Below are positions 906-48,659 of a stretch of 64,000 nucleotides of DNA, in pieces. Source of the stretch: Pseudoalteromonas piscicida (GTDB lineage Bacteria; Pseudomonadota; Gammaproteobacteria; Enterobacterales; Alteromonadaceae); assembly GCF_000238315.3 (NCBI RefSeq), contig NZ_CP011924.1, forward strand, positions 3,059,001 through 3,123,000. Reading direction: 5' to 3'. The position numbers and the translations under genes are program-made. The notes under the pieces are model-generated. The model did no database searches. It worked only from the letters and a program-made list of their open reading frames with translations, and was not told the DNA's origin. Numbering within the stretch: position 1 is the stretch's first letter; every line of letters starts with the position of its first letter.

Positions 906-2150
906 TTAAAATAGATACTGCAAGCGTGCAGCAAAACCAAACCCTGAATCTTCGTCACCAACCAACGCGGGACTTCCAGCTCCTGAAACATTCGCATAGA
1001 CAAGGTTAGCCATGAACTTTAAGCTGCTGGAATGGTAATAGGTGCCGCCCAGTGTGTAGGCATCGACTTGCGTGCCTTGGTTGGCGTTTTCAGCATCCAT
1101 ACTGGAAATACGTGCAACCAACTCCCACGCATTTTTTACCCCTTTAGGTTGCTTAAATACCGCAGAGCCTGCAGAATATTGTTTGTGTTCACCGGTCAGG
1201 AAATAGCTCAAGGACAAGTGATAACCCGAAATATCTCCCCCATCTAAAGCAGAAGTAGGGTCGAGGGTATCTAAGTTTCGTGTAGCATATTCGGCCTCAA
1301 GCATAAAGGCGTTATGTTGATAAGCGAGCTCTAACCCGGCTTGTGACATGCTATCAAGAGCAACTACATCACCGCCTGCAGCATAATCCACGAGGCGCAC
1401 TTTGGCTTCGCGTACTTCACCGCGAGCAAGGCGATTACCCAGCGTAGCGCCGCCCATATCACGGTACGAACCCCAACCACCTAAATGCAGGGTTTTACCG
1501 GGAGTGTGTTGCGACCAAGTCAAACGCCCCGAATAGGCAAGTGCCAGACGGTCATCTTGGTCACGCCCAGATGCACCAAAGGCGTCGTTTTTATATACCC
1601 CTAACGCATAGCGAAAACCGGAATCTTTAAAATATTGATAAGCTGATGCGCCCCATCGAAAGTAAGGAGAAAACGTATCAGCGATGGAACTGCGCTCTAT
1701 GGTATTGATGTGTTTGCTGCTGGTGAGCGCATTCAGGGTGATATCTTCTCTTAATTTACCAAACTGAAAGCGCGGGCCGTTGTTCCAGCCGGTATAACGC
1801 ACTCTTACAGTGACTATCTCGGCATCGCCTTCAGCAAAATCGAGTAGCAACTTGTGCTCCCAGTCGCCCTGCTCACTCTCGACATAGGTGCGGATCCGGC
1901 GCGGAAAGAAATCGCTCGCGGCATCACCCTTATTATCGGCGCTGTATGCACCACTAAAATGGTTAAAATCGAGTTGTACACGCCCACCAAACTCAAGGTT
2001 CAGTGATTTATTGGACTGTAATTCCTTTAATTGCGCTTCTAGCTTTGCAACCTTGCTGGCTAGTGCTTCATCTTGTTGTGCCAAAACGGGGCAAGCAGTT
2101 ACCGCAATTAATGACATTGCTGCAACTGGCTTCATTATTGTTGTTCTCAT
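906..2150 (-). CDS. Outer-membrane porin, phosphate-selective porin O/P-like
   Basis: 414 residues. A signal peptide (MKPVAAMSLIAVTACPVLAQ) is followed by a short coiled-coil (about residues 27-50, EALASKVAKLEAQLKELQ) and a beta-barrel rich in alternating aromatic and polar strands, ending in LQYLF with the C-terminal Phe needed for BAM recognition. The layout fits the OprP/OprO 'phosphate-selective porin' family, whose members often carry other anions. As it sits directly before a TctC-type binding protein, it probably lets a carboxylate cross the outer membrane; that is inference from context. The first codons (MRTTIMKPVA) contain a second ATG six codons in, which may be the true start. An 11-bp inverted repeat upstream (2281-2316) may be its operator. 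Confidence 0.8.
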   Translation of the reverse strand: MRTTIMKPVAAMSLIAVTACPVLAQQDEALASKVAKLEAQLKELQSNKSLNLEFGGRVQLDFNHFSGAYSADNKGDAASDFFPRRIRTYVESEQGDWEHKLLLDFAEGDAEIVTVRVRYTGWNNGPRFQFGKLREDITLNALTSSKHINTIERSSIADTFSPYFRWGASAYQYFKDSGFRYALGVYKNDAFGASGRDQDDRLALAYSGRLTWSQHTPGKTLHLGGWGSYRDMGGATLGNRLARGEVREAKVRLVDYAAGGDVVALDSMSQAGLELAYQHNAFMLEAEYATRNLDTLDPTSALDGGDISGYHLSLSYFLTGEHKQYSAGSAVFKQPKGVKNAWELVARISSMDAENANQGTQVDAYTLGGTYYHSSSLKFMANLVYANVSGAGSPALVGDEDSGFGFAARLQYLF

Positions 2151-2316: not shown

Positions 2317-2578
2317 TACAAAGTAGTGTGGAAATAAATAACGAGTAAAGCGAAAGTATGACTGCTGCGTTAATCAAAATATCTAAGATGTGGATGGTGA
2401 ATTAACCTAGCTTTTCTCTGAAGCTCTAGAAGCGGTGAACCTACAAAGCTCAATATAGAATAATACTTTGCCCCCTAGAATAAGCAGAAATAAGACATAC
2501 TACACACCAAAAACCATCTCATTAATAAAACAATACACTCAATAAATTTAAATTTGGCGTAATTCCAACCACTTAGAT

Positions 2579-2643
2579 CTAAATAAGAATTATTTTCAAA
2601 AAGAGCGTTGACAGCTCTTCAAATCTAATTGATAATCACTATC
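2579..2643 (+). promoter_or_regulatory. Fur-controlled sigma-70 promoter of sRNA copy 1
   Basis: The -35 hexamer TTGACA (2608-2613) and the extended -10 GATAAT (2631-2636) are 17 bp apart. One Fur-like 19-mer ends at 2597 (AATAAGAATTATTTTC core) just before the -35, and a second, CTAATTGATAATCACTATC (2625-2643), covers the -10. By eye each matches roughly 14 of 19 positions of GATAATGATAATCATTATC. Two boxes bracketing the promoter imply tight repression when iron is plentiful. Confidence 0.75.
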
Positions 2644-2847
2644 AACAAGACGAGAGTGACGGCTCAACTTGTTATCACAATAGTTTCTTGACCCGAAACA
2701 AGGCTGGTATCCACAACTACCAAGGACGTTAGTAGGCACTTGCATTGCTCCTCGTATTTAGACGCTAACTCCAGTTTTTACTTGCTACATTGCTCATATC
2801 GGTGACGGTAGATATGAAATCAAAAAGCCCTGCTCAGGGCTTTTTTT
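2643..2847 (+). ncRNA. RyhB-like iron-responsive small RNA, tandem copy 1
   Basis: The predicted transcript is about 205 nt, from just after the -10 box to an intrinsic terminator (stem AGCCCTG/CAGGGCT at 2826-2841 followed by seven T). Its 3' half holds the block shared by all three copies (2776-2817), including CTTGCTACATTGCTCATATC. This resembles the enterobacterial RyhB core, where ACATTGCTCA also occurs inside the target-pairing segment. Copy 1 also has a second CATTGCTC-like segment at about 2741-2749. RyhB represses iron-using proteins under iron limitation with Hfq. The Fur promoter plus seed plus terminator make the call; the exact 5' end is inferred from promoter spacing. Confidence 0.72.
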
Positions 2848-2901
2848 ATGTCCAAAATTTATTTTTACTTCGGTATTTCCTAGAAAAACAGCCACACTAA
2901 T

Positions 2902-2965
2902 ATTAATGAGAATTATTTTCAAAAAAGTATTGACTCATTGTTAGATCTAACTGATAATCACTATC
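2902..2965 (+). promoter_or_regulatory. Fur-controlled sigma-70 promoter of sRNA copy 2
   Basis: TTGACT (2930-2935), a 17-bp spacer and GATAAT (2953-2958) form the promoter. The upstream Fur-like box is at 2902-2920 (TTAATGAGAATTATTTTC core) and the second, CTAACTGATAATCACTATC, at 2947-2965. The architecture is the same as in copies 1 and 3. Confidence 0.73.
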
Positions 2966-3241
2966 AACAAGACGGCAACGTGTTGTTTAGCCAATTCAGT
3001 TAGTAAGGTTGATAGTTGTAAAGCCCTGTCTACCTGATGTACTCGCTACATTGAGATTGGCATTAGTACTCTAGTTTGTTTCTCGACCCTGAAACACGGC
3101 TGGCCAACGTTAATGGCTTGAATGAGCTTAATTCAGTCGCCCCTAAACCTGACTAAGTTTATTCTCACAATTTACTTGCTACATTGCTCATATCGGTGAC
3201 GGTAGATATGAACGTAAAAAGCCCTGCTCAGGGCTTTTTTT
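2965..3241 (+). ncRNA. RyhB-like iron-responsive small RNA, tandem copy 2 (longest)
   Basis: The predicted transcript is about 277 nt. The conserved 3' block (3171-3212) has the same ACATTGCTCATATC seed and is followed by the same AGCCCTG-CT-CAGGGCT hairpin and T-run ending at 3241. The 5' part is longer than in the other copies and contains a degenerate second seed, GCTACATTG at 3045-3053, which may be a relic of a fourth unit. A stretch reading CGACCCTGAAACACGGCTGG (about 3085-3104) has a counterpart in copy 1 (TTGACCCGAAACAAGGCTGG). Same role as copy 1, perhaps with an extra pairing site. Confidence 0.7.
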
Positions 3242-3295
3242 ATGCCTAAAATTTATATCTATTTTCAACGCTTACCGAAAAACAGCTGCATAAAT

Positions 3296-3359
3296 ATTAA
3301 TGAGAATTATTTTCAAAAAGGTATTGACCTGACGGTAAATCTAATTGATAATCAATATC
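3296..3359 (+). promoter_or_regulatory. Fur-controlled sigma-70 promoter of sRNA copy 3
   Basis: TTGACC (3324-3329), a 17-bp spacer and GATAAT (3347-3352). Fur-like boxes lie at 3296-3314 and 3341-3359 (CTAATTGATAATCAATATC). It is the third repeat of the same promoter design within 1 kb. Confidence 0.73.
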
Positions 3360-3522
3360 AACAAGAGGACATACTCTTGCTGATTCGGCCCTGAATCGTG
3401 TTGTCGGTGATGTGCTACAACGCCCCTTGATGTGTATCACTGGCAACCACTTTTTACTTGCTACATTGCTCATATCGGTGACGGTAGATATGAATCAAAA
3501 AGCCCTGCTCAGGGCTTTTTTT
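3359..3522 (+). ncRNA. RyhB-like iron-responsive small RNA, tandem copy 3 (shortest)
   Basis: The predicted transcript is about 164 nt, ending at the shared terminator (stem at about 3500-3515, T-run to 3522). The conserved block at 3451-3494 again contains CTTGCTACATTGCTCATATC and the GGTGACGGTAGATATGAA tail. The unique 5' region differs from copies 1 and 2, so the three RNAs may share core targets but differ in accessory pairing. A long open frame reading through this RNA into the next gene is not coding: it crosses the terminator. Confidence 0.72.
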
Positions 3523-3624
3523 ATGCCTACATTTTCTATCAGCGTTTGTTCAGCTGTAATGTCGTGTAATCGTTTTCTTTTACTAGAATCCGTATCATTC
3601 TATTTTTCCAAAAATAACAATAAT

Positions 3625-5034
3625 ATGAACGCTCGACGCTACCGTTATAACATGTTGTTAAGCCTGCTGCTGCTGGTAGGGTTTATTTTCACCAGCTGGA
3701 TAAGTATCGAGCATGCTAAACAATCGTTGTATAAAGGGGTGAGCGATGATGCTCTGCCACTCACCAGCCATCTGATTGATTTAGATATACAAAAACGGCT
3801 CCAAGCTCCAATCATTGTTTCTCAGCAAATGGCAAATAACGTCTTTATTAAACGTTGGCTAACGTCTTCACAGCAAGACCCTGCGCTTATTTTCACCTAC
3901 TTAGAAGATACTCGAGTATTACATCACGCAAAAACGAGCTTTTTAGTGGACGACAAGAGCCTCACTTATTACCACTCTGATGGTAGCACCCAACAGTTAG
4001 ACATCCGTGCCAAACAAAACGATTGGTACCGAGAAAGCCTGCATAGCGATGCTGACTATGCGCTCAATGTTGATATAGACCCAAGAGATAACAACGAAGC
4101 CATTGTTTACGTCAATCATAAAATAAGGCAAAACAACGATGTAATTGGCGTTGTTGGGGTTGGTATCTTATTGGCTGATTTACACAATTTAATCGAACAA
4201 TACGAAGCCAGCTACGCACGCAAACTGTACTTTATTGACCACAAAGGCAGGCTATTATTTTTTAACGATCAGACCCTATCTGGCACCAGTATTCATGATC
4301 GTTTTCCAACCCAAGCAACGGCGCTGCTCAATCAATCCGAATATCAATTTCAGTTGGAAACCGACGACCATGCCGAGTTTGTTCATTCGCGCTATTTGGA
4401 CTCTATAGGCTGGTATCTAATTGTTGAGCAAACAATAGATAAATCAAGTGGAATAAGCGACATCCTCACAACCAATTTATGGGTAGGGAGCCTCGTCACC
4501 TTATTAATATTGGCCGTAGCGCAGCTGACGTTTAATCATTATCAAAAACGCTTAGAAAAAATGGCGAAGTACGACAAACTCACCGATACCTTTAATCGTC
4601 AAGCCTTCGAGCCACAGCTTCAGCATCATTTAGCTAAAGCGCGTACCCAATCAACCCCTGTAGTAATGTTGATGATGGACATTGACCACTTTAAACAAGT
4701 GAACGATCAACATGGCCATGTGGTAGGCGACAGAGTGCTGCAATGCTTCTCCAACGTATGTAAACGCCAGATAGAAAACAACGGTTTGCTGTGCCGCTGG
4801 GGAGGCGAAGAGTTTATGGTATTGCTACCCAAAGCGACGTTAGAGCAAGGAATTGCGATTGCTGAGAAGATCCATGTTGCTCTAGAGCAGGCGGAATGTG
4901 AGGTCAAAGTGACAGTCAGTATTGGCGTTGCACAATACCATATTGATGAATCGGAAGATGGATTTATAAAGCGCGCCGATGCCGCGCTCTATCGTGCCAA
5001 ACAAGGTCGGAATCAAACCAAATTCGCCGCTTAG
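3625..5034 (+). CDS. Membrane diguanylate cyclase with periplasmic sensor domain (GGEEF)
   Basis: 469 residues from the ATG at 3625. The frame is open further upstream but runs through the sRNA terminator, so the later ATG is chosen although its ribosome-binding site is weak. TM1 (about residues 10-30, LLSLLLLVGFIFTSWI) is followed by a periplasmic Cache-like sensor (about 35-285), TM2 (about 295-315, WVGSLVTLLILAVAQL) and a GGDEF domain (about 325-469). The domain shows DxxHFKQVND and an intact RWGGEEF active site, so it should make c-di-GMP. No RxxD inhibitory site is seen five residues before GGEEF, so product inhibition may be absent. Its ligand is unknown. It lies just downstream of three iron-responsive sRNAs and overlaps the convergent GTPase gene by 4 bp. 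Confidence 0.85.
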   Translation: MNARRYRYNMLLSLLLLVGFIFTSWISIEHAKQSLYKGVSDDALPLTSHLIDLDIQKRLQAPIIVSQQMANNVFIKRWLTSSQQDPALIFTYLEDTRVLHHAKTSFLVDDKSLTYYHSDGSTQQLDIRAKQNDWYRESLHSDADYALNVDIDPRDNNEAIVYVNHKIRQNNDVIGVVGVGILLADLHNLIEQYEASYARKLYFIDHKGRLLFFNDQTLSGTSIHDRFPTQATALLNQSEYQFQLETDDHAEFVHSRYLDSIGWYLIVEQTIDKSSGISDILTTNLWVGSLVTLLILAVAQLTFNHYQKRLEKMAKYDKLTDTFNRQAFEPQLQHHLAKARTQSTPVVMLMMDIDHFKQVNDQHGHVVGDRVLQCFSNVCKRQIENNGLLCRWGGEEFMVLLPKATLEQGIAIAEKIHVALEQAECEVKVTVSIGVAQYHIDESEDGFIKRADAALYRAKQGRNQTKFAA

Positions 5035-31656: not shown

Positions 31657-34470
31657 CTACAACTCATACCAAACACTAAACCAAACACGGTTTTCATTGG
31701 TCATGTTACGCCCCTCTATACGACCCACTCCAGCACTAAACTGCAGATCGGTTAATCCTGCGGGAGCAAAATCAGCGGCCTTGTCTAATATCACTCGAGA
31801 CAAAGGTAAGCGCATCTTAATACCGTAATTTTGCCCAATTACTTCTCCTTCTAACTGATGCTGCTTATAAAATAACTTAGGTTTACCCTGCTGCCATGAA
31901 GTTGCAAATTCATAGCCTAAATAGCGGCTTCCCGTAGCAAATAGATGCGGTAACATAGGTTCGCTGACAGCATGTAAACTGTTACTAATGCTAGTGCTGG
32001 TAAGCGCTCCACCACCCACAGATAGAGGCAATTCGCTGCTGTAGCGGCTATCGACCGATGCGTAGAATGGAATTTGCCATGCTTTAGCGAACAGATTCAC
32101 CTGATAATCAAAACCATCTAATTCACCTAGCCACTGAGCTGCAGAGACTTGCAATGCTACACCATGCTGCTGAGTATCCCACATTGCACGACCGTTAAAG
32201 CCATAACGCCCGCCGTTCCATGTCTTTTCACCATGTTGCACACGAATAACACCCAATTCGGGAGCGAGGTAGTTCAACGCTTCACCAAAACGATAGCTAG
32301 ATGACAAGGCAAATTGCTTAAAGCTGCTCTCATTCGAGGTATTAGCTTGTGGCGAGCGAGACTGCTTATCCGCTTCTAGCTCTTGATATCCAGCATCAAA
32401 CGTCGTTTTCCAGTTTTCATGACGATATTCAAGTTGGGCAAATGCGCCCATCAACGCGCCATTATTCATACTTTTCTCGGCTCCAAGCTGCCAAGCAAGT
32501 TGGCGCAGCACATCCTGCCCTTTTAGTGACACGCCCAAACTATCAAAGGAGGCGCTATTTAATGCGCCAGATAAGGCGATAGAATAAGACTGTTCGAACA
32601 CAGAATAATCAGAACTGGGCAGCACAGTTTGGTCTATCTTAGCCGCAGGTAATTGATGGGGATGCAGCTCTTTTTGTTCCGCCTCATCCACTTGCTCCAA
32701 CACGCTCACAGTGCGCCAAGCCGGAGAAACTATTTTGTTAACCTTAACACCTTCAGGGGTCGCATAGCTCACCAGTAACTGCTGTGAATGGGTAATAATT
32801 TGCTCAAGCGGTTTAGCACTTGCAGGTAAGGTCTCAAGTACTTTACTTTCCACATCATAACGCATCACCGCTAAGTGGCCTGCGACTCCGGAAATAAAGT
32901 ACAGCTTGTCATCATCATGAGACCAAGTTAACCCCGAAAGGTATTGATGTGACTTGGGTAAGTAGACGATTTCGGTTGTATCGTGGCTAAGATCTTTAAC
33001 AACAAGCTGCCAGCGTTTATTAGGAGTAACATGCACATAAGCTAATGTCGTCTTTTTATTAGAAAGCACGGGAAAGTCATGGACATCACCAAGCTTACTT
33101 GTGGTGATTGGCGCTTGCTTGCCTGAGTCCAACTCCATGATCACTAGCTGTGAGTAACCCAAACGGGACACCTCCGCAATAACGGTATTAGCATCAACAA
33201 TACTAAAGCGGCGAATACCCGCGCCTTCGGTTAGTTGTTTAGGCTTTCCAGTACCAACTTTCCAGACAAATAAATCATTAATAAAGCTATCGTCTGCATC
33301 CGGCGTTTTTGCAACGAAGTAAATATGGCTGTCATTCAGCCATTGGGGGTAATAGATACCAGCAAAATTATGAGCATTAAGCTGCGCGAGTCGCTTCTTT
33401 GGAAAGACTTCAGGTGCGATATCCACAATATCTTTAGGATCGGCATTTAATATCGCTTCATTGCGCTTATTAAATTGCTCAATGGCTTCTACATTTTCTT
33501 TGCTTTCGTAGATATTGAGTATGACTTGGCGTTTACGATTTTGCTCTACCACCAAAAACTGACTGCCATCTGGAGAGAACGCGATATCTCGAGCAGCATA
33601 CGCAAACTGCTGCCAAAGTTCACTCTGTGTCGGGATCAAGGCTTTCTCTTGCTGCATGGCCTGATAGCTATATTCAACAATAAAGCGACGATATAACTGG
33701 CTGGCTGGCGCTCCAAAAGCCCCACTAAATGCGGTTTCAAAACTGCGAGATTCCACCGCCTGCACTCTTGTCCACACGGCATCTAACGTCTGTGCGCCAT
33801 AATTATCCTCAAGCCATGCTAGAAAACGTACGCCGACTAAGTACGCCATGGAATTGGAAAGATAAGACTTGTCGCCATCATCTAAAGCGCTATAGGTCGG
33901 TAATGCGCCTTGCTGCGCGTAATAACGCACAATGCTCTCACTATAGTTATCGTACAAACGTCCTCGCCCCGTTAATCTAGACTCCAGCAAGGTCGCATAG
34001 CCTTCGCTGACCCAACGCGGTAATACCGCATCGAGCAAGTCGGTAATATCGTGCCAATCTCTGAGATGTTGTCGCCATTGGTTACGGCTAGGCTGTGATA
34101 GATGAACGAGATGAATATATTCGTGCAAAATGAGCAACTGCTGCCAACTGGTGTTATTTGCGATGACGGAATCAGCTTGAGGCGGCGTTGCTTGCAGTGC
34201 CATCATTGGTTTATCTGTGCTGGGTAATGCAAAGCCATTGGCCGCATTTTCTGGATCGTAAATAATCACATCAGCACGTTCACTCAAGGCTCTACCTTGT
34301 TGTGCCAGCACTTTATCTCGCACTACCTCCAGCTCATTTGCTGCAGAATACGCCCATTGCTGAAGCGACTGAGGATAATGCACATTGAAGTTTTCAGTTT
34401 TGATGGTTTGCCACTTAGCCTGTAAACCAAAGCTAGTAAAAGCAACAAAAATTATCAGTAGCGCTCGCAT
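31657..34470 (-). CDS. Envelope gluzincin metallopeptidase with beta-propeller and outer-membrane-like C-terminus
   Basis: 937 residues with a signal peptide (MRALLIIFVAFTSFGLQA). The zinc site HEYIH (His116, Glu117, His120) is followed 36 residues on by SEGYA (Glu156) as third ligand, the gluzincin pattern. Residues about 280-620 carry repeats typical of a TolB/DPP-like beta-propeller (SPDGSQFLVVEQ, WLNDSHIYFVAK, WSHDDDKLYFIS). The last 300 residues read as amphipathic beta strands and end in WFSVWYEL, suggesting an outer-membrane barrel or surface domain. Peptidase with tethered propeller; substrate unknown. Transcribed alone. Confidence 0.8.
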   Translation of the reverse strand: MRALLIIFVAFTSFGLQAKWQTIKTENFNVHYPQSLQQWAYSAANELEVVRDKVLAQQGRALSERADVIIYDPENAANGFALPSTDKPMMALQATPPQADSVIANNTSWQQLLILHEYIHLVHLSQPSRNQWRQHLRDWHDITDLLDAVLPRWVSEGYATLLESRLTGRGRLYDNYSESIVRYYAQQGALPTYSALDDGDKSYLSNSMAYLVGVRFLAWLEDNYGAQTLDAVWTRVQAVESRSFETAFSGAFGAPASQLYRRFIVEYSYQAMQQEKALIPTQSELWQQFAYAARDIAFSPDGSQFLVVEQNRKRQVILNIYESKENVEAIEQFNKRNEAILNADPKDIVDIAPEVFPKKRLAQLNAHNFAGIYYPQWLNDSHIYFVAKTPDADDSFINDLFVWKVGTGKPKQLTEGAGIRRFSIVDANTVIAEVSRLGYSQLVIMELDSGKQAPITTSKLGDVHDFPVLSNKKTTLAYVHVTPNKRWQLVVKDLSHDTTEIVYLPKSHQYLSGLTWSHDDDKLYFISGVAGHLAVMRYDVESKVLETLPASAKPLEQIITHSQQLLVSYATPEGVKVNKIVSPAWRTVSVLEQVDEAEQKELHPHQLPAAKIDQTVLPSSDYSVFEQSYSIALSGALNSASFDSLGVSLKGQDVLRQLAWQLGAEKSMNNGALMGAFAQLEYRHENWKTTFDAGYQELEADKQSRSPQANTSNESSFKQFALSSSYRFGEALNYLAPELGVIRVQHGEKTWNGGRYGFNGRAMWDTQQHGVALQVSAAQWLGELDGFDYQVNLFAKAWQIPFYASVDSRYSSELPLSVGGGALTSTSISNSLHAVSEPMLPHLFATGSRYLGYEFATSWQQGKPKLFYKQHQLEGEVIGQNYGIKMRLPLSRVILDKAADFAPAGLTDLQFSAGVGRIEGRNMTNENRVWFSVWYEL

Positions 34471-34900: not shown

Positions 34901-34919
34901 GCTAATGATAATTATTATC
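34901..34919 (-). promoter_or_regulatory. Fur box upstream of the small membrane protein gene
   Basis: GCTAATGATAATTATTATC matches 16 of 19 positions of GATAATGATAATCATTATC. It lies between the end of the histidine kinase gene and the start of the small gene, so it can only control the latter. Confidence 0.75.
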
Positions 34920-36189
34920 AACAAGGTAAAGTGATTTTTATTAATCCACCTGGGTCGGTGTTGTGACAACTCAGTTGTCCATCGTGTAACTCCACAATGG
35001 TGCGACTAAAGGTTAACCCTATTCCCTGCCCACCTTCTTTGGTGGAATAGAAAGGTGTAAGCATGTTATCTAGGTTGGCAAAGCCTGGGCCATTGTCTTG
35101 CACATCAATCACCGCTTGTTGCTGCTGATAATAAGCATGTAGGGTCAACTTGGCATTTTCACCACAGGCCTCAATGGCATTTTTAATTAAGTTAATCAGC
35201 ACTTGCTCAATTAAAGCTTTATCAAGATTGAGCGTATTCACGGTGCAATTTACTTGGATGTCGGTATCCTCAAATAGCGCAGCAACAGAAGACAGTAACA
35301 GCATGATAGAGACAGACTCACGATCTAACCTTGGGGTTTGCGTAACCTTAGCGTATTGGCTCACAAATTGTTGTAAATGCTGGCAACGCTGACCAATAAC
35401 ACTTAGCGCATGCTGCTCTTTTTCGTCCTTTGCTCTTGCCAATAAGGTTTGCGCTAAGGAGCTTACGGGTGTCAAACTGTTGTGGATCTCATGGCTTATT
35501 ACTCGGATTAAATGTTGCCAAGCTGCCAGCTCCTTTTTACGTAATGCCTTAGTGATATCGAGTGCGACAAGTAAGGAAAACCGCTTACCTTCTTGAAAGA
35601 ATTCACTGCTTTGCAGCTGCCACCGAGATTGCTGCGCTGTGTCTGCAAAATGCCAGTGATTATCTTGTTGCACAAGCCCAAACTGAGCCGCGCTTATTCC
35701 CTTACACTCTAACCAAGGGCGATGGTAAAGCAACTCAAATGCCCCATTGGCGTAGGCAAGTTTGAGTTTTTCGTCAAACATCATAATAGGCGTATTAAGG
35801 CTGTCTATTAGCTGATAAATGATAAATTGCTGACTATGATAGCGGCGCTTTTGACTGTGCAGCTGTGCACTTAAGGCCAGCAAGCGCTGTTCAAACTCAG
35901 CTACCACGCCCGCTGTATAATGTGGCTTAATGGTTTGAGTAAAATCACTTTGTGCAATCGCTTCTAGCTGCCAATTAGCACGCATAGCAATACGTTTAAG
36001 ATGAGACAACAGTATTTGTTGTAGCCTGCCCAATAACCCCAGCACACTCACCGATACGGCAGCCACCCACGTTACCTCAAGCTGTAATTGCAGAAGCAGC
36101 AAAGTCAGTAAAACCGTACAGCTAATGGTCAACAGCGTACAGTAGGCCCCAAGTCGCCACTCGGCGCTAGCCAGATGTTTTAAGACCAT
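34918..36189 (-). CDS. Sensor histidine kinase, NtrY-like
   Basis: 423 residues from the ATG at 36189. The longer upstream frame overlaps the regulator gene too far to be used. Two TMs at about 12-50, a PAS-like middle domain (about 105-200, containing NTPIMMFDEKLKLAYANGAF), then the phospho-acceptor helix with H-box ISHEIHNSLTPV (about 222-233), N-box NLIKNAIEAC and G-boxes DNGPGF and GGQGIGLTFS. This architecture matches NtrY-type kinases that pair with sigma-54 activators. It overlaps the regulator gene by about 23 bp, so the two are translationally coupled. The signal is unknown. Confidence 0.88.
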   Translation of the reverse strand: MVLKHLASAEWRLGAYCTLLTISCTVLLTLLLLQLQLEVTWVAAVSVSVLGLLGRLQQILLSHLKRIAMRANWQLEAIAQSDFTQTIKPHYTAGVVAEFEQRLLALSAQLHSQKRRYHSQQFIIYQLIDSLNTPIMMFDEKLKLAYANGAFELLYHRPWLECKGISAAQFGLVQQDNHWHFADTAQQSRWQLQSSEFFQEGKRFSLLVALDITKALRKKELAAWQHLIRVISHEIHNSLTPVSSLAQTLLARAKDEKEQHALSVIGQRCQHLQQFVSQYAKVTQTPRLDRESVSIMLLLSSVAALFEDTDIQVNCTVNTLNLDKALIEQVLINLIKNAIEACGENAKLTLHAYYQQQQAVIDVQDNGPGFANLDNMLTPFYSTKEGGQGIGLTFSRTIVELHDGQLSCHNTDPGGLIKITLPC

Positions 36190-47411: not shown

Positions 47412-48659
47412 TTATTCTTTTGTTTCTATTGCTCTTTTTTGAACACATTGCAGCAGCAAATTACTCCCTGCTTCAACATCATGCCAATGACTCCATTCGT
47501 CTGGCGCATGGCTAACGCCATTGAGTGATGGAATAAATATCAGCCCCGTGGGACACACTTCTGAAAAAAATTGGCTATCGTGACCAGCACCACTTGGCAT
47601 GATTTGATAATTCAGCGACAAGGCCTCTGCCTGTTGACTAATAAATTCAACCATCTCAGGTGTGCACTTCATTGGAGACAACCAACTCACCTGCTCGTAT
47701 TCAAACATTAAATGGTGTTTCCGAGCGATAGCTGAAAGCACTTTTCGACAGGCAATTTCAAGGTTCTCCATCACCGTTTCGTCCATATCACGCGCAACGA
47801 TGGTGAAATCCACCTCTCCAGCAATCGTATGTGCAAAACCCGGCTTTAATTCCGCCTTACCGACGGTGATCCTCGTGGTATCCGTACCGTCTTCTGCAAT
47901 AATGCGATCTAACTGGTAAGCAAAATCAGCCAGCCCCATAAAGGCGTCGCTGCGCATCTCCATGGGGGCTGTACCTGCGTGGTCGGCCTTCCCAATTAAT
48001 TTCACCATCCATTTAAATACCCCTGAAATTCCTTCCACCACACCAATTTGAATACCTTTTTGATCAAGTACGGGCCCTTGCTCTATATGTAATTCAAAAA
48101 AACTATTTATTTGCTCAGGTTCTAGCCTCGCATTCAGTGCATCCATAGGGTCTAACCCTTGCGCACGCATGGCATCGCTAAGCATACAGCCATCCGCATC
48201 ATGACTTGTGAGCAATTGGTGAGGCGTTAATTTTCCAGTGAGCGCTTGCGCCCCGATCATGCCACCAAAGCGCCCTTCTTCTTCGCTGGTACCGATGACC
48301 CAAATCGGCCTATCTAATTGCACATTGTGCTCTTTTAAAATACGAATACACTCAAACCCCGCAATGACGCCCAAGGTTCCATCAAACATGCCACCTGCTG
48401 GTACGCTATCGAGATGAGAGCCGATGATCACAGCGGGTTTTGCTGCAATATCCGGGCTGGTCATTTCAATAATCACATTGCCAGCGCCATCCATACGACT
48501 CACAAATCCTTCGCTTTGTGCGCATTCCATCAGCCATTTACGCGCTGCAAAATCCTCATTGCTAAAACCTTGGCGATAAATTCCCTTATCTTCATGGTTA
48601 TAGCCGAACTCCGCGAGCGCAAATAAGGTAGACTTAAGACGTTCTAAATTTACTTGCAT
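47412..48659 (-). CDS. M20-family amidohydrolase: N-carbamoyl-L-amino-acid hydrolase / allantoate amidohydrolase type
   Basis: 415 residues, usual length. The zinc ligands are visible: GSHLDSVP (His), MFDGTLG (Asp), SEEEGRF (Glu pair), FELHIEQGP (His) and NGVSHAPDEW near the end. The ELHIEQGP motif separates this hydantoinase/carbamoylase branch from other M20 peptidases. It cleaves N-carbamoyl amino acids or ureides to ammonia, CO2 and the free amine. It lies 136 bp upstream of the symporter operon on the same strand. Together they suggest handling of a carbamoylated compound. The exact substrate is unknown. Confidence 0.85.
   Translation of the reverse strand: MQVNLERLKSTLFALAEFGYNHEDKGIYRQGFSNEDFAARKWLMECAQSEGFVSRMDGAGNVIIEMTSPDIAAKPAVIIGSHLDSVPAGGMFDGTLGVIAGFECIRILKEHNVQLDRPIWVIGTSEEEGRFGGMIGAQALTGKLTPHQLLTSHDADGCMLSDAMRAQGLDPMDALNARLEPEQINSFFELHIEQGPVLDQKGIQIGVVEGISGVFKWMVKLIGKADHAGTAPMEMRSDAFMGLADFAYQLDRIIAEDGTDTTRITVGKAELKPGFAHTIAGEVDFTIVARDMDETVMENLEIACRKVLSAIARKHHLMFEYEQVSWLSPMKCTPEMVEFISQQAEALSLNYQIMPSGAGHDSQFFSEVCPTGLIFIPSLNGVSHAPDEWSHWHDVEAGSNLLLQCVQKRAIETKE

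Follow-up and report, generated by a model that had tools for sequence, protein, structure and literature searches.

The window analysed here, a 64,000-nt stretch of the Pseudoalteromonas piscicida genome (5.49 Mb in two contigs), carries an array of three similar units between a porin gene (906–2150, minus strand) and a GGDEF gene (3625–5034, plus strand). Each unit begins with a promoter whose elements are 17 nt apart; one Fur-like box covers the −10 element and another lies about 45 nt upstream of it. Then come a 5′ part peculiar to the unit, an invariant 36-nt core and a terminator. In a repeat search the units lie 394 and 282 nt apart, start to start, and all three contain TTTACTTGCTACATTGCTCATATCGGTGACGGTAGATATGAA and AAAAAGCCCTG/CAGGGCTTTTT. 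The 40-nt block that they share, which continues into a 7-bp hairpin, occurs at three places genome-wide with up to 3 mismatches allowed, all of them in these units, and the differing 5′ parts are also structured and conserved. Exactly three promoter-like sites are found in 2400–3650 (TTGACA, TTGACT or TTGACC, 17 nt, GATAAT, at 2608, 2930 and 3324). Because shuffled sequences average 3.9 such sites the scan is not significant by itself, and the weight of these sites rests on their register with the repeats. The promoter/terminator scan listed no plus-strand terminator in the region; stems followed by T runs are visible at the unit ends in the sequence and in the folds. Three repeated units with two Fur-like boxes, a 17-bp-spaced promoter, a shared block, a terminator and different 5′ parts had been proposed in a preliminary description of this DNA, and the sequence analysis confirms them; the transcript lengths predicted there, 205, 277 and 164 nt, are those given by the boundaries that we infer from the promoter and the terminator.

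All features of the array are on the plus strand. Unit 1 has an upstream Fur-like box (2584–2598, 3 mismatches to TGATAATNATTATCA), a putative sigma-70 promoter (2608–2636) and a box overlapping the −10 element (2630–2644, 1 mismatch). Its predicted sRNA of about 205 nt (2643–2847) scores 128.7 bits (E 3.3e-32) with R1, a covariance model for which the window units were left aside, and contains a hairpin with a first C-rich loop, TTGACCC (2683–2699, helix 2 of the alignment A2 described below), a second seed copy, CACTTGCATTGCTCC (2737–2751, where the CGCCCC loop stands in most units; present in 7/7 unit-1 orthologues examined), the invariant core, made of the seed TTGCTACATTGC and the hairpin TCATATC/GATATGA (2782–2817), and the terminator (2822–2845). 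In unit 2 the upstream box (2907–2921, 2 mismatches), the promoter (2930–2958) and the −10 box (2952–2966, 1 mismatch) precede a predicted sRNA of about 277 nt (2965–3241; R1 133.7 bits, E 1.3e-33 over 3030–3240), with a 5′ insertion that is common to its aligned orthologues in the clade. Its first loop, identified by the covariation analysis, is TCGACCCT (hairpin 3078–3095) and its second loop is CGCCCC (3138–3143, alignment A1); the core lies at 3176–3211 and the terminator at 3216–3239. Unit 3 is shortened: behind an upstream box (3301–3315, 2 mismatches), a promoter (3324–3352) and a −10 box (3346–3360, 1 mismatch), the predicted sRNA measures about 164 nt (3359–3522; R1 110.9 bits, E 2.6e-27), with a variant first loop, GGCCCT, seen in the folds (hairpin 3382–3397), the second loop CGCCCC (3421–3426, alignment A1), the core (3458–3493) and the terminator (3497–3520). 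The three cores were located by the repeats, the genome search and the alignment, and the three terminators by the repeats and the folds.

The Fur-like boxes are rare in the window and constant in the units. Only 4 of the roughly 64,000 window positions match TGATAATNATTATCA with at most 1 mismatch, the three −10 boxes and one site at 34906, and about 0.1% of positions reach 4 mismatches or fewer to the Fur-like consensus. Among 160 unique units, 154 have a −10 box (at most 3 mismatches, 60–300 nt before the core), and 150 of these 154 have a second one (at most 4 mismatches, within 65 nt upstream). Of the six units without a −10 box, three are in loci that cover just 7–146 nt upstream of the core, and in L030, L032 and L072 the box was not found despite 500 nt of upstream sequence. 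These counts support in silico the proposal that the units are Fur-controlled sRNA genes.

The units are predicted to fold into a common structure. Six helices with strong covariation are supported in alignment A2 (26 standard units chosen by hand out of 60 non-redundant ones, window units excluded): a 5′ stem formed by CAACAAG and CTTGTT, a hairpin whose loop is TCGACCCT, a short stem of CGTG with CACG, a long one that surrounds ACGCCCCTTGA, the 7-bp hairpin of the core, and the terminator. Paired cells make up 91.7% of A2 vs 84.1% in shuffles, and there are 132 double-change cells vs 54.7, a value that none of 500 shuffles attains. Structures slid along the alignment reach at most 50 double-change cells, a comparison that favours the A2 structure since it was derived from the alignment used for counting. 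Double changes occur in 24 of the 51 pairs, and in 17 of the 19 pairs of helix 4, which is the strongest part of the structure evidence. The core hairpin never varies and so gives no evidence either way, and RNAalifold run on A1, a gappier alignment of 41 units, found just the 3′ helices. In folds of 53 units the seed upstream of the core hairpin is mostly open (mean unpaired probability about 0.5–0.8 at most positions), while one GC, one G and the UCAUAUC of the core are largely paired.

The sRNA family seems, by sequence, to run through the genus Pseudoalteromonas. A 19-nt core was searched with up to 2 mismatches and is present in 58 of 59 same-genus relatives, 59/60 with the P. piscicida genome itself; the one relative without a match, G016, may reflect a true loss or an assembly gap. 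The exact 29-nt core occurs in 87 stretches of named genomes, all 80 among the matches listed being from Pseudoalteromonas, and the 19-mer has one match outside the genus, in G062. In the P. piscicida genome R1 finds exactly the three window units (E 1e-33 to 1e-27). Run on 76 genomes from the family's other genera, with strict filters that lose weak matches, R1 gave 16 places in 15 genomes at E≤1 (best 6.5e-4); all 16 were inspected and none combines core, Fur-like box and terminator. Core-like strings are present at L177 (3 mismatches) and at L168, L172 and L185 (4 mismatches), and L172 also has a string that departs from the Fur-like box at 2 positions. At E≤10, Rfam yields 37 weak matches in the array region, all of them below the family cut-offs, and those viewed in alignment rest on the terminator or on A/T-rich sequence. 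As judged from these searches, the family matches no Rfam family at cut-off and is found so far only in Pseudoalteromonas.

The largest array has one unit in 22 genomes, two in 18, three in 16 and four in 1 (57 genomes, own included; the count omits G058, for which it would be an "at least" figure, G047, and G016, which has no match, as well as places with 2 mismatches). A triple array is not unique to P. piscicida, being carried by 16 of the 57 fully counted genomes. The array lies near a GTPase gene that matches Pfam MMR_HSR1, and which we take to be rbgA-like, in 42 of 62 long loci, some of which share one genome; in the remaining long loci either the end of the stretch is too near or the locus is a second one elsewhere. 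The P. flavipulchra locus has a 99% identical copy of the porin gene that adjoins the array. The same sRNA has additional loci in other Pseudoalteromonas species (L026, L028 and L101; L039, L040 and L121; L011, L032 and L106), with the same core, a different 5′ part and, in those read, a CGACCC-type loop; no rbgA was found in the stretch where this was tested, and the CGCCCC loop was not seen in them.

This conservation bears on two explanations without a trans-acting RNA. As only about 100 nt separate the end of unit 3 from the GGDEF gene, the units might be cis-acting leaders or attenuators of this diguanylate cyclase gene (3625–5034). This is very unlikely, as every unit ends with its own terminator-like stem and the cyclase gene is not always beside the array, which counts against a leader role: the gene is present beside it in some species and absent in others, and at L044 and L103 the array directly adjoins the rbgA-like gene, with no cyclase match. 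Repeated units with paired Fur boxes, in arrays of 1 to 4, could also be a repeat family, a mobile element or a box cluster that titrates Fur without any RNA product. The conserved place near rbgA in 42/62 long loci, the compensatory changes in the helices and the invariant seed make this extremely improbable.

The units had been called RyhB-like. A RyhB-type string is indeed present in the core, and membership of the RyhB family (RF00057) is not supported: the covariance-model check gave no match in the region, either at the gathering cut-off or at E≤10, and the best match in the genome is elsewhere, at 24.1 bits for a cut-off of 55 bits. The RyhB core ACATTGCTCACATTGCTTCC is not found in the window units, which have ACATTGCTCA in common with it, continue with TATCGGTGACGG and lack its second half, CACATTGCTTCC. 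Of 197 genomes of the order, 73 have an RF00057 match at E≤0.01, which in 47 of them exceeds the cut-off; at E≤0.01 there was no match in the 13 genomes from other genera of the same family. The cores retrieved from RF00057-matching genomes are ACGACATTGCTCACATTGCTTCC or variants of it, whereas Pseudoalteromonas retains ACATTGCTCA alone.

The core is complementary to an expected target. In 16/16 Pseudoalteromonas genomes the sdhC leader is complementary to the core directly before the start codon, and it ranks within the best 1.6% of 1054 genes in all of them (median 0.1%), compared with a median of 14% for the reversed core. The background of 1054 genes comes from a simple gene caller applied to 1.26 Mb and surely includes misplaced starts and spurious genes; seven stretches in it correspond to sites already known (sdhC, two sod genes and four antisense matches), and ranks for the other genomes were computed against this own-genome background. 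In P. piscicida itself the sdhC leader ties 4th–5th of 1054; 5 of 2000 shuffled cores reach its pairing energy and 3% of 200 reach its rank (with every fourth background gene used), so that the rank in a single genome is modest by itself. In 12 of the 16 genomes the GTG start is immediately preceded by the leader motif GTG[GA]GCAA-(4–5 nt)-GGCAAGTAAC, of which GGCAAGTAAC is present in all 16; among the variants, L201 and L206 retain GAGCAA, and the upstream block differs in L194 and L208. The predicted duplex joins UUACUUGCU of the core to GGCAAGUAA of the leader and UUGCUCAU of the core to either GUGGGCAA or GUGAGCAA, and a pair is preserved whether the leader has G or A at the variable position (G-U or A-U). 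The UCAU of the second pairing block is predicted to lie inside the core hairpin, with a mean unpaired probability of 0.10–0.21 in the 53 units. Four second sdhC-like genes (L212–L215), excluded from the 16-genome ranking and ranked separately, show no pairing with the core (ranks 45–100%). One of them, L213 (G003, C112:10031), has a Fur-like GATAATCATTATCATT in its leader and is perhaps an iron-starvation copy of sdhC that escapes the sRNA.

Swapping the cores of different lineages in the pairing test suggests that seed and target diverged together. An E. coli-type core gives a worse rank than the native core for each of the 16 Pseudoalteromonas leaders, although it has a slightly better raw energy for three of them (L200, L202 and L203). 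In G060 and G068, where RF00057 scores 36 and 41 bits and so stays under the cut-off, the sdhC leaders rank at 0.09% with the E. coli-type core, at 1.0% and 0.5% with their own RyhB-like cores, and at 5–8% with the Pseudoalteromonas core. As for the four outgroups without an RF00057 match, the leaders of G064 and G067 lean to the RyhB core and those of G062 and G065 fit neither. The ranks in the 16 genomes and this co-divergence support in silico the sdh-type target that had been anticipated; if seed and sdhC site have both changed in comparison with RyhB, this would be a clear example of sRNA–target co-change. The other anticipated target, sodB, was not substantiated: the start region of the P. 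piscicida gene shows no pairing with the core and ranks at 52%, and those of Pseudoalteromonas relatives rank at 38%–92%. Long antisense matches of 18 nt to the sRNA are not commoner than in a control (4 non-self vs 6).

The units may still be strongly diverged orthologues of the enterobacterial or Vibrio RyhB at a moved locus, and would then merely be a new member of RyhB. We regard this as quite possible, if somewhat short of an even chance. The 10-mer ACATTGCTCA of the RyhB core is retained, Fur control looks alike with a Fur-boxed promoter, and the sdhC leader, the predicted target, pairs at the same place beside the start codon. On the other side are the lack of any RF00057 match in the region at E≤10, with 24.1 bits at most in the genome, its absence at E≤0.01 from the 13 other-genus genomes of the family, the missing second half of the core, the covarying hairpins with C-rich loops, and the genomic setting, the usual neighbour being the rbgA-like gene. 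Ten shared bases cannot decide the ancestry. The gene place known for ryhB from Vibrio and Shewanella is downstream of VC0106/SO4716. Tandem arrays are not new for RNAs of the RyhB kind, since a ryhB gene is reported for S. oneidensis and a tandem pair for S. amazonensis (PMC2964681), and since other families have them as well. In family f2 of the order, perhaps Shewanella, the RyhB-like genes form triples in two genomes (G229, G128) and doubles in three (G177, G060, G162), and in family f16 doubles are present in G211, G170 and G198. Fur-like boxes are visible by eye upstream of these loci (L144–L149, L152 and L155). The passages of that paper mention just the pair of S. amazonensis, vs the triples seen here. 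The f2 copies have a near-identical core region, unlike the Pseudoalteromonas siblings with their divergent 5′ parts. The novelty therefore appears to lie in the sRNA family and its architecture.

The reading that we favour, and hold with considerable confidence, is that of tandem genes for trans-acting sibling sRNAs, repressed by Fur and sparing iron through pairing with sdhC, in a family restricted so far to Pseudoalteromonas. The observations made in silico are conserved transcription units, Fur-like boxes, a covarying structure and, in 16 genomes, complementarity to sdhC; transcription, Fur binding, use of Hfq (an hfq gene is present in the genome), repression and the role of the C-rich loops are what we infer beyond them. 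In this scheme the sRNAs most likely work like RyhB. When iron is present, Fur would cover the −10 and upstream boxes and repress all three units; when it is absent, the units would be transcribed, and the seed UUACUUGCU-ACA-UUGCUCAU would pair in two blocks with the sdhC leader beside the start codon. This pairing would block sdhC translation and lead to decay of the sdhCDAB mRNA, so that iron is spared. The C-rich hairpin loops CGACCC and CGCCCC would probably cap the Shine–Dalgarno regions of further mRNAs. If this is right, a common marine genus runs its iron economy with an sRNA family that is invisible to Rfam-based annotation. In the open-licence literature we found no report of an iron-responsive or RyhB-like sRNA in Pseudoalteromonas, and the passages of PMC12096840 and PMC11277574 that mention both subjects describe none.

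A candidate for the C-rich loops is gltB. Its leaders of the type TAGCAAGGGGAGG can pair with the seed as well as with CCCCUUG, and in 13 genomes the median rank of the gltB leaders is 5% when the core is used and 2.7% when loop 2 is used, which makes gltB a moderate lead. The C-rich loops resemble the C-rich regions of IsrR of Staphylococcus, which pair with Shine–Dalgarno regions, that of gltB2 included (PMC9410917). IsrR and FsrA (Bacillus) are likewise described there as Fur-controlled iron-sparing sRNAs with C-rich regions able to cover Shine–Dalgarno sequences, and glutamate synthase is a possible common target. The Pseudoalteromonas units differ in adding a RyhB-type seed, and their C-rich pairing is predicted.

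The 5′ parts are where the siblings part ways. In the window they are 39–50% identical to each other, and 84–98% identical to those of same-position units in four related loci. The spacers are 74–94% identical in the two closest related loci; in the two more distant ones they are 16–43% identical over the full length and 68–100% over aligned bases, the low values largely reflecting length differences. Both C-rich loop motifs are present in 117 of 154 units. Unit 1 is without the CGCCCC loop, and in 7/7 orthologues examined the corresponding alignment position is taken by the second seed copy, CACTTGCATTGCTCCTCG. Unit 2 also has a string resembling the seed (GCTACATTG, about 3045), but the orthologues of this unit do not share it. 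For an array of this kind the preliminary description had offered dose or target division, and the divergent 5′ parts conserved within the clade would favour the latter. We tentatively propose that the array is made of modular siblings, in which an invariant RyhB-like seed is combined with exchangeable C-rich or second-seed loops that give each unit its own targets, the swap in unit 1 being fixed in the clade. Unit 1 would then have exchanged an anti-Shine–Dalgarno loop for a second seed, and the family would join the RyhB and IsrR/FsrA modes of pairing under Fur control and split them among duplicated genes. The three copies may also be a dosage device, with identical functions and more RNA, which we consider a possible but doubtful explanation. 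The core is identical in all three units, and the 117/154 units with both loop motifs would fit such a device. Over 19 three-unit loci, moreover, the identity of 5′ parts within an array averages 67%, and just 311 of 513 units have their best match at the same array position, so that siblings are less distinct outside the window clade. Against dosage stands the contrast in the window clade between 39–50% identity among siblings and 84–98% at the same position across species, the latter also exceeding the full-length identity of the spacers of the two more distant relatives. With array sizes of 1 to 4 and diverged siblings, dose and target division of sibling sRNAs could, if the reading is right, be directly tested in this genus.

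Tandem siblings of this kind have precedents. PrrF1 and PrrF2 of Pseudomonas aeruginosa are described in PMC4211561 as tandem, Fur-regulated, iron-sparing siblings that are 95% identical and have no homology with RyhB. The Pseudoalteromonas arrays differ from them in counting 1–4 units and, in the window, in siblings that share the core with 5′ parts only 39–50% identical. OmrA and OmrB of Escherichia coli have a regulon and a regulator different from those of the Pseudoalteromonas units. They are, like these, tandem siblings with shared and different stretches, and have shared and unique targets (PMC4211561). In the Pseudoalteromonas units, the common block is mainly on the 3′ side.

Some further observations concern other genes. 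Two candidate targets with a high pairing rank in P. piscicida were rejected: the rank is lost in 12 relatives for gltD, and in 12 relatives except G002 (2.7%) for phhA, which encodes phenylalanine hydroxylase, an iron enzyme (L258:8446–9240), and ranks high for the core in P. piscicida. The CcmI/CycH gene of cytochrome c biogenesis (L252:12210–13493) also ranks high for the core in the own genome. The own-genome gltB (L269:10220–12805; G000:C1:605220) has an open frame of 866 aa vs 1490–1508 aa in 12 same-genus relatives, and may be an interrupted gene or contain a sequencing error. In the window, the fourth close match to the Fur-like box (34906–34920) is a perfect 15-nt palindrome, TGATAATTATTATCA; some 430 nt downstream of it begins an open reading frame of 937 aa on the minus strand (31657–34470) that has no Pfam match. 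The start region of a gene for an M20-family peptidase/hydrolase, also in the window (47412–48659, minus strand), ranks 9 of 1054 for the core and 7 of 1054 for loop 2.
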